In this document: piece by piece, positions 55,423 through 57,321 of the stretch
Layout of the letters: each line of letters starts with the position of its first letter
Numbering within the stretch: position 1 is the first letter of the stretch
Assembly (NCBI GenBank): GCA_902631785.1
Contig: CACOZT010000001.1
Span: 320,741-384,740, forward strand
Source: an uncultured SAR86 cluster bacterium
GTDB taxonomy: Bacteria; Pseudomonadota; Gammaproteobacteria; Magnimaribacterales; D2472
Direction: 5' to 3'
Length of the DNA: 64,000 nt
Notes under the pieces: model-generated
The model's database searches: none
Told to the model about the DNA's origin: nothing
What the model saw: the letters and a program-made list of their open reading frames with translations, nothing else
Position numbers and translations under genes: made by a program

Positions 55423-55430
55423 ATCAAAAC

Positions 55431-55459
55431 TTTAAAAACAAAGAATTTTTCTATAGAAT
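55431..55459 (+). promoter_or_regulatory. Candidate sigma70 promoter for rpsB-tsf
   Basis: TTTAAA (55431-55436) and TAGAAT (55454-55459) are 17 bases apart. The -35 is weak, but the -10 equals that of the rpsJ promoter. Initiation near 55466 would give a leader of about 93 bases before the rpsB start, long enough to hold the pseudoknot described at 55492-55551. Confidence 0.5.
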
Positions 55460-55469
55460 ACACAAACTT

Positions 55470-55558
55470 TAACCACGAAGATTCTTGTTTTGTAAAGTGG
55501 GGTGCTTATAAAGTTTGCTTTACTAAGAGTCGGAGAATAACCCCAAAGGAGATATAAA
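55470..55558 (+). promoter_or_regulatory. rpsB leader with candidate pseudoknot at the ribosome site
   Basis: GTAAAG (55492-55497) pairs perfectly with CTTTAC (55518-55523). The adjoining TGGGGT (55498-55503), inside that loop, pairs perfectly with ACCCCA (55540-55545), outside it. This is an H-type pseudoknot of two 6-bp stems that can stack. The second stem ends on the first base of the AAAGGAG ribosome site (55545-55551). Gammaproteobacterial rpsB mRNAs are known to be autoregulated by S2 through a conserved leader, so this is probably its counterpart. The pairing is seen in the sequence; the control is inferred. Confidence 0.65.
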
Positions 55559-56461
55559 TTGAGTATAGTATCAATTAAAGACCTGCTTCAGGCAGGAGTT
55601 CATTTCGGTCATCAACAAAGATTCTGGAATCCTAAAATGGATGAGTTTATCTTTGATACCAGAAAACAAATTAGCATTATTAACCTTGAGATTACTCAAG
55701 AACATTTAAGTGCTGCTGCATCAAAAGTAGAGGATATATGTTCTAAGGGAAACAAAATTCTATTTGTTGGTACAAAAAGATCTGCAAGCAAGACGATTAA
55801 GGAAGAGGCATCTCAAATCGGATTGCCATATGTTGATAAAAGATGGCTAGGTGGAACTCTTACTAATTGGAAAACAATAAGAGGTTCCATAAGAAGACTA
55901 ATAGACATTGAAGAAATGATTTCTTCTGGAAGGATTGAAAAATTAATCAAAAAAGAAGCAGTTGAAATTCAAAAAGAATATACAAAATTAAAAGCAAGCG
56001 TTGGCGGAATTAAAGACATGAAAGGTTTGCCTGATGCTATTTTTGTTGTTGATGTAAAGTATGAAAAAATTGCAGTGCTTGAGGCTAAGAAAATGGGTAT
56101 TCCAGTTATTGGAATAGTTGATACAAATTCTGATCCGGATGGTATTGATACAATTATTCCAGCAAACGATGATGCAATAAGGTCAATCAGGCTAATTACA
56201 AAAGTTATCGCTGATGCCTGCGCTAGGGGAATAGAGTCTTCAAAAGGATTTGCACCAAAATCTGATGCACCTGTTATACAAAAAGTTAAAAAAGATGATT
56301 CAAAAGGGTCAGATGAGGATAATCCTGAATTAGTTGAGGATGCTCCAAAGGCTGATGATTCATCTGAAAAAGAAGCAGAAGTTGATAAGGAATCAACAGA
56401 GGCTGATCAGGAAGTTTCTGACGATACTTCACCTGAAGATTCCAATGAAGAGGATAAATAA
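55559..56461 (+). CDS. rpsB: 30S ribosomal protein S2 with acidic C-terminal tail
   Basis: The 300-residue S2 joins last to the 30S subunit and helps bind S1. The core matches the family: LLQAGVHFGHQQRFWNPKM, WLGGTLTNWKT and PDAIFVVDVKYE. The core ends near residue 235. A tail of about 65 residues follows, with about 25 Asp/Glu; E. coli S2 (241 residues) lacks it. The start is TTG at 55559 after AAAGGAG, the only start fitting MSIVSIKDLL. Confidence 0.97.
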   Translation: MSIVSIKDLLQAGVHFGHQQRFWNPKMDEFIFDTRKQISIINLEITQEHLSAAASKVEDICSKGNKILFVGTKRSASKTIKEEASQIGLPYVDKRWLGGTLTNWKTIRGSIRRLIDIEEMISSGRIEKLIKKEAVEIQKEYTKLKASVGGIKDMKGLPDAIFVVDVKYEKIAVLEAKKMGIPVIGIVDTNSDPDGIDTIIPANDDAIRSIRLITKVIADACARGIESSKGFAPKSDAPVIQKVKKDDSKGSDEDNPELVEDAPKADDSSEKEAEVDKESTEADQEVSDDTSPEDSNEEDK

Positions 56462-56463
56462 AA

Positions 56464-57321
56464 GTGGAAATAAAAGCATCACAAGTAAAAGAGTTAAGAG
56501 ATATGACTGGTGTAGCGATGATGGACTGCAAAAAAGCACTTGTTGAATGTGAGGGTGACATAGAGAAAGCTCTAGATCTTTTAAGGTCAAATAGCGCGCT
56601 CAAAGCTGAAAAAAAATCCTCAAGAGTTGCGGCAGATGGAATTCTTGTTGCATCTGTGAATGAGGACTATGCAACTTTGGTAGAGTTAAATTCTGAAACA
56701 GATTTCGCAGCAAAAGATGCAAACTTTTTGTCATTTGGTGAAAAAGTAAAAGAATATGTTTCAAAAAATAAAATTTTTGATACATCAACTCTTGTAGAAT
56801 CTTCGTTAGAAGAGGACAGAAAAACATTAGTTCAAACCATTGGTGAAAATATTCAAATTAGAAGGGTTGTGACACTTGAATATGATTCCAGTATGGATAT
56901 TGGAGTTTATATACACTCAGACACAAAGCTTGGTTCGTTGGTAGTTGTTAAAGACGGTAGCAATGACATAGCAAAAGATATTGCAATGCATGTATCAGCC
57001 TTTAACCCTTTATGTTTATCTCAAGATGACATAGATCAAGATGTTCTCGAAAGAGAAAAAGCAATATATCAAAATCAAGCTCAGGATTCTGGTAAGCCAC
57101 AGGAAATCATGGACAAGATGGTTGAAGGAAAGATAAAACGATTCTTATCAGAAGTCTCATTAATTTCTCAAAATTTTGTTAAGGATCCTGACATTACAGT
57201 TCAAGAGTATCTAGAAAAAGATGGTGCAACCATTGTTTCTTTCGCTAGACTTAAAGTTGGTGAGGGAATTGAGGTTGAGACAAAAGATTTCGCTGAAGAG
57301 GTTGCAGAACAGTTAAAATAA
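56464..57321 (+). CDS. tsf: Elongation factor Ts
   Basis: The 285-residue EF-Ts exchanges GDP for GTP on EF-Tu. The UBA-like N-terminus VKELRDMTGVAMMDCKKAL and the contact block ETDFAAKDANF are present. The start is GTG at 56464, two bases after rpsB; no strong ribosome site precedes it, suggesting coupling to rpsB translation. Length resembles the E. coli protein (283). Confidence 0.98.
   Translation: MEIKASQVKELRDMTGVAMMDCKKALVECEGDIEKALDLLRSNSALKAEKKSSRVAADGILVASVNEDYATLVELNSETDFAAKDANFLSFGEKVKEYVSKNKIFDTSTLVESSLEEDRKTLVQTIGENIQIRRVVTLEYDSSMDIGVYIHSDTKLGSLVVVKDGSNDIAKDIAMHVSAFNPLCLSQDDIDQDVLEREKAIYQNQAQDSGKPQEIMDKMVEGKIKRFLSEVSLISQNFVKDPDITVQEYLEKDGATIVSFARLKVGEGIEVETKDFAEEVAEQLK

Follow-up and report, generated by a model that had tools for sequence, protein, structure and literature searches.

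The leader of rpsB in the window, by which we mean the whole 64-kb stretch of SAR86 DNA analyzed here, is very probably the form that the known rpsB motif takes in the SAR86 lineage, the motif being the element through which S2, a ribosomal protein, represses the operon that encodes it. Sequence analysis showed that this leader and the one before E. coli rpsB (Rfam t44) are homologous, in sequence and structure as well as in position. Both the motif and its pseudoknot have already been published, so the leader is not new as a kind. In the part of the original description used here (Meyer 2009, PMC2704228), the motif comprises P1, P2, P3 and the same pseudoknot, and is recorded in Alpha- and Gammaproteobacteria, other groups and marine metagenomes. 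An earlier note on this DNA had described a two-stem knot abutting the ribosome-binding site and suggested a comparison with known rpsB leader models. That comparison identified the stems as parts of the published rpsB motif, Rfam t44. The knot is thus the rpsB-leader pseudoknot, and both of its stems are kept in relatives; the full motif, however, is an assembly of P1, P3 and pseudoknot rather than two stems.

Open reading frames and Pfam matches placed the leader (55465-55558, forward strand) directly upstream of rpsB in an rpsB-tsf operon. The rpsB gene (55559-56461, forward strand; Pfam Ribosomal_S2, 1.6e-89) encodes S2 and begins with a TTG codon at 55559-55561. The second gene of the operon, tsf (56464-57321, forward strand; Pfam EF_TS, 2.3e-65), encodes elongation factor Ts and begins with GTG. 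The TTG start of rpsB was found in 32 of the 33 members of the window's family, with ATG in the remaining one. Past the end of the Pfam Ribosomal_S2 domain at residue 224, the encoded protein continues into an acidic C-terminal extension some 75 residues long. The start of the leader was estimated from a probable -10 box of the rpsB promoter, TAGAAT at 55454-55459 on the forward strand. This box lies inside the block TTTTTCTATAGAATAC (55444-55461), whose columns hardly vary across the 32 family leaders. Together with a -35-like TTTAAA at 55431 and a spacer of 17, it matched 9 of 12 consensus positions, a weak signal with 2 such sites found against 0.8 expected in shuffles. The block as a whole was conserved in the family almost as well as the leader itself, and it probably holds the rpsB promoter.

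Both stems described in the earlier note were present in the window, namely GTAAAG (55492-55497) with CTTTAC (55518-55523), and TGGGGT (55498-55503) with ACCCCA (55540-55545). Their 5' arms are indeed contiguous at 55497/55498. The first stem, extended by U498, forms upper P1, in which GUAAAGU (55492-55498) pairs with GCUUUAC (55517-55523). Two further helices on the forward strand had been overlooked. Lower P1, set off from upper P1 by an internal loop, consists of GAUUCUU (55480-55486) paired with AAGAGUC (55525-55531), and P3 of CUU (55505-55507) paired with AAG (55511-55513). At the junction between upper P1 and P3, the 5' arm of the pseudoknot, GGGGU (55499-55503), pairs with ACCCC (55540-55544). 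The 3' side of P1 is joined to the latter arm by a conserved linker, GGAGAAUA (55532-55539), whose GGAG is kept in most leaders. AAAGGAG (55545-55551), read from the sequence, is the Shine-Dalgarno (SD) element of rpsB.

The bare presence of two interlocked stems is only mildly unusual, and it is conservation that decides. Two interlocked and perfect stems of 6 bp, with no more than 3 nt between their 5' arms, were found in 17 of 711 90-nt tiles of the window; when the leader was shuffled by mononucleotides, 260 of 20,000 shuffles held such an arrangement. Nor does folding energy by itself set the leader apart, the z scores relative to shuffles being 0.10 (55465-55558) and -1.24 (55465-55539). 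Two predicted folds were rejected. Folding of 55423-55600 gave a long stem with sequence upstream of the probable promoter, a stretch that is probably untranscribed. Folding of 55465-55558 prolonged upper P1 into the G run through G-U pairs, and this was discarded because the matching U run is missing in most relatives.

Among named records, the nearest matches to rpsB of the window's genus came from uncultured SAR86 cluster bacteria, at 83, 66 and 80% identity. Among 60 relatives searched, rpsB was found in 56, and the upstream DNA was taken from all of these. The 56 leaders comprised 33 from the window's family (f1), 16 from sister families (f2 and f3) and 7 from a third family (f4). The family alignment contained the 32 distinct leaders of the 33, L006 being identical to L005. 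The structure evaluated had 5 pairs in lower P1, 8 in upper P1, 2 in P3 and 5 in the pseudoknot. In the 32 leaders, 96.0% of cells were paired, compared with 92.3% in shuffles and 28-55% in slid controls. Changes on both sides were seen in 29 cells (7.8 in shuffles) and in 8 pairs (3.5 in shuffles, with 2 of 500 reaching 8). The covariation score was 0.193 against 0.128 in shuffles, a value reached by 0 of 500; the shuffles ignore kinship, so these family figures are somewhat overstated.

The earlier note had proposed a search for compensatory changes in both stems. For the first stem they were clear, as 5 of the 8 upper P1 pairs had changed on both sides and 93.5% of cells were paired. Lower P1 behaved similarly (55480-55484 with 55527-55531; 96.9% of cells paired, 2 of 5 pairs with changes on both sides). 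Its two innermost pairs, including 55485:55526, were formed in the window and not kept in relatives. For the second stem the answer was partial: one pseudoknot pair covaried, while the others hardly varied and were uninformative. Within the family, four of the five pseudoknot pairs were invariant and one had changes on both sides; the pair 55499:55544 was GC in 25 leaders, AU in 2, GU in 1 and something else in 4. P3, a 3-bp helix (CUU/AAG) at the position expected for the motif, showed almost no variation in the family.

A broader sample was drawn from the class, comprising 114 genomes, 112 of them with rpsB, from which 69 were used, one per family, together with E. coli K-12. A similar leader could be read in nearly all of them, in the order CACAC...GGGUGC...GGAGG..AACCC. 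We then compiled an outside-family alignment (A5) of 66 leaders, 8 from the sister families, 57 from the class and that of E. coli, with f1 deliberately excluded. Fifteen leaders were dropped by hand: L062, L083, L106, L113, L117, L126, L128, L035, L037, L040, L044, L046 and L055 for low scores or doubtful arms, L120 for too short an upstream region, and L042 for a core identical to that of L039. Among the sister-family rows dropped are those in which the pseudoknot is weak, and the pseudoknot core therefore looks better in A5 than it should. RNAalifold recovered P1 and P3 from A5, with changes on both sides in 18 of 19 pairs. With the pseudoknot added, the covariation score was 0.597, compared with 0.232 in shuffles (0 of 500 as high) and at most 0.153 in slid controls. 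P3 has five pairs in these 66 leaders, and all five had changed on both sides. A long P1 with covariation is therefore found in the 32 family leaders as well as the 66 outside ones.

The pseudoknot core GGGU/ACCC was invariant in the aligned rows of both the family and A5, which speaks neither for nor against its pairing. The fifth pair, 55499:55544, was more informative. In the 66 class leaders with located arms it was Watson-Crick in 34, compared with 16.9 by permutation, and none of 20,000 permutations was as high. The individual combinations were UA 12, GC 11, AU 7, CG 4, GU 8, UG 2 and other 22. This covariation is independent evidence for the pseudoknot as read from sequence. The arms were located by a script in 66 of 70 class leaders (all except L087, L091, L095 and L127) and in 15 of 16 sister-family leaders (all except L043). 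The script is permissive: it also called arms in 4 of the 7 seemingly leaderless f4 leaders, and in a few rows it chose wrongly, among them two family rows read as A-C. Its counts for the core pairs arise partly by construction, and only the fifth and sixth pairs, which it did not score, serve as evidence. Upstream of the 3' arm, a GGAG no further than 11 nt from ACCC was present in 30 of the 33 family leaders; of the 66 leaders from other families, 49 had it, that of E. coli among them. Overall, the pseudoknot between the junction and the 3' extension has about five pairs, and it is weaker in one sister family.

The earlier note had further claimed that the second stem covers the first A of AAAGGAG. 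This was not borne out, as the sixth pair, 55498:55545, is the sole contact with AAAGGAG and does not covary. It was Watson-Crick in 22 of 33 family leaders, where permutation gave a mean of 21.4 and 2195 of 5000 permutations were at least as high. In the class the figures were 16 of 66, a mean of 20.1 and 4635 of 5000. Because of this absence of covariation, we took the pseudoknot as 5 bp and assigned U498 to the first stem, where it more likely pairs with G517 than with 55545. The ACCC core lies 0-4 nt from the SD in all 33 family leaders. The distance was within 3 nt in 14 of 63 class leaders scored, and 17-28 nt in the sister families (15 leaders). The sister families (f2 and f3; L033-L047 and L055) have an extra hairpin-like stretch between the 3' arm of the pseudoknot and the SD.

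Kinship with the leaders of other families was examined with two models, R1, built from the family only, and R2, built from the 66 outside-family leaders and none of f1; the E-values of both are rough. Searched against the 64-kb window, R2 gave a single match, at 55460-55544 (24.5 bits, E 0.00095), so that leaders of other families alone located the one in the window. R1, whose training leaders include this one, placed it at 55470-55547. R2 also found 28 of 31 other family leaders, none of the 7 f4 leaders, and 12 of the 14 named loci tried among 80 retrieved. In the reverse direction, R1 matched the E. coli leader at its correct position (24.9 bits, E 0.0019). It also detected 13 of the 16 leaders from the two sister families, none of the 7 from f4 and only 9 of the 69 from the class. 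Searches of whole genomes were uninformative. Under strict filters R1 detected 1 of 274 class genomes, its own, in spite of leaders being visible by eye and alignment, and R2 detected none in 8 f4 genomes plus the own genome, missing even the known leader of the latter, so this result is no sign that f4 lacks a leader elsewhere in its genomes.

Rfam's own models did not recover the leader at their cut-offs. At gathering scores, the scan of the window returned four tRNAs and a tmRNA, with no match at rpsB. The t44 model (RF00127) scored 15.2 bits (E 1.8) at the right place, below its gathering score of 44 bits. That cut-off was reached in none of 15 leaders of the SAR86 order (8 from f1, 7 from f2 and f3), compared with 83.5 bits for E. 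coli. Four other matches in a permissive scan (a microRNA, two snoRNAs and, on the minus strand, a PreQ1) were set aside as chance matches. A literature search for SAR86 together with rpsB or ribosomal protein leaders, with subscription papers mostly outside its scope, showed no title about this leader among those listed, and its absence in print is unproven.

The window's leader shares with the rpsB motif, in the portions of the description that we compared (PMC2704228), the long P1, the variable P3, the location before rpsB, and a P2 that, as most Gammaproteobacteria have it, is very short or missing. The pairing of the junction with a 3' extension after P1, by five pairs in most groups, is also the same. 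It differs in a P3 of only 3 bp and in a pseudoknot core 0-4 nt before the SD. Compared with the E. coli rpsB leader (L057, RF00127), the order of elements, the positions of the stems, GGGGUGC and GGAG-n(3-5)-AACCCC are the same. The E. coli leader additionally has CACACACG...CGUGG extending P1, GGCAC in the internal loop, a 4-bp C/G P3, a gap of roughly twelve nt or more from ACCCC to the SD, and an ATG start, whereas the window's leader is A+T-rich. The K-12 record and Rfam still label the E. coli leader (L057:313-448) as small RNA T44. Pseudoknots near the start site also serve as ribosomal-protein operators in the S15 rpsO and S4 alpha-operon systems, as outlined in review (PMC10931766); the proteins, genes and folds are different there, and these are analogues in manner of working only.

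Local variation of the motif was modest. GNCAC on the 5' side of the internal loop, which is our own observation and no published criterion, occurred in 43 of 66 leaders of other families, and in none of the 33 family leaders or the 15 sister-family leaders with located arms. GGGUG was kept in 33 of 33 family leaders, as in other families. According to the section of the 2024 review bearing on this point (PMC10931766), removing a conserved bulge by a small deletion may be enough to end regulation in E. coli. In view of this and of the absence of GNCAC, S2 recognition in the SAR86 family may differ from that in E. coli, though we do not equate the bulge with GNCAC. One sister family (f2-type; L035, L037, L040, L043, L046 and L055) had a shortened pseudoknot, with the fourth pair as A-U in only two, and the five rows of the other had an intact one. 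In f4, inspection showed that in 6 of 7 cases (L049-L053 and L056) a DapB-like tail reaches up to or into the start of rpsB, leaving no room for a leader; two of the tails were tested by Pfam, and both were DapB_C. In L054, also of f4, an apparent remnant of the dapB tail alone precedes rpsB. Thus f4 appears to do without the leader, although it belongs to the same order.

These results bear on other explanations of the element. Functionless chance complementarity has almost no probability left: comparable stems do turn up in 17 of 711 tiles, but the compensatory changes in family and class and the match of the held-out R2 model refute it. We also regard it as extremely unlikely that the element is an independent small RNA (t44/tff) instead of an mRNA leader. 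Rfam types t44 as 'Gene; sRNA', and the K-12 record annotates 189712-189847, immediately ahead of rpsB, as 'putative small RNA T44'. However, every leader used here sits directly before rpsB, albeit by construction of the search, T44 of Alcanivorax is reported to have, probably, the same start site as rpsB-tsf (PMC9788540), and E. coli is known to regulate rpsB in cis (PMC10931766).

A free-standing H-type pseudoknot of two stems, the second of which would mask the beginning of the SD by pairing, seems very improbable. Both stems are there, 0-4 nt from the SD in all 33 family leaders, but the pair reaching AAAGGAG lacks covariation in family and class, lower P1 and P3 are conserved too, and AGGAG itself is unpaired in the model. 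It is unlikely, to a lesser degree, that the folded leader sets translation rate or mRNA stability, for example by docking of S1 or the ribosome, and that the response to S2 was lost in this reduced-genome lineage. The loss of GNCAC from the whole order sampled (0/33 and 0/15) would fit, as would the f4 family that appears to manage without a leader, and the review, where it treats S1, names pseudoknots as high-affinity S1 targets (PMC10931766). On the other hand, GGGUG is retained in all 33 family leaders and GGAG upstream of ACCC in 30 of them, as expected with a conserved specific binder.

If the leader is the S2-responsive rpsB motif, its working may be outlined by analogy. Structure and kinship are established by the alignments and models above, and S2 binding and repression would be expected from E. 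coli, where, by the review's account of this operon (PMC10931766), S2 represses rpsB-tsf translation by binding the leader, with S1 helping. S2 in excess of free 30S assembly intermediates would bind the folded leader, possibly with the help of S1 as in E. coli. Binding would hold the pseudoknot and block loading of 30S on the SD just downstream. With initiation on rpsB blocked, S2 would fall, and EF-Ts would presumably fall too via coupling. The earlier suggestion that S2 stabilizes the knot and shuts off rpsB-tsf is therefore retained in part: S2 feedback is the likely purpose by analogy with E. coli, but shut-off by covering the SD is unproven, because the SD and start codon of E. coli rpsB are reported to lie outside the S2 operator (PMC10931766, same account). 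Since at most 4 nt separate the pseudoknot core from the SD in the family, the ribosome would more likely be kept off sterically than by pairing of the SD itself. More tentatively, and with considerable doubt, the SAR86 family might have a compacted S2 operator, with the pseudoknot at the SD, a conserved TTG and no internal-loop motif, in which S2 may exclude 30S directly, unlike in E. coli.

Taken together, the S2 leader very probably persists in A+T-rich, genome-reduced marine bacteria of the SAR86 type, where it is invisible to Rfam's t44 model. Its compact version could help settle the mechanism by which S2 represses translation, and the f4 family, apparently without the leader, would offer a natural contrast inside the same order.
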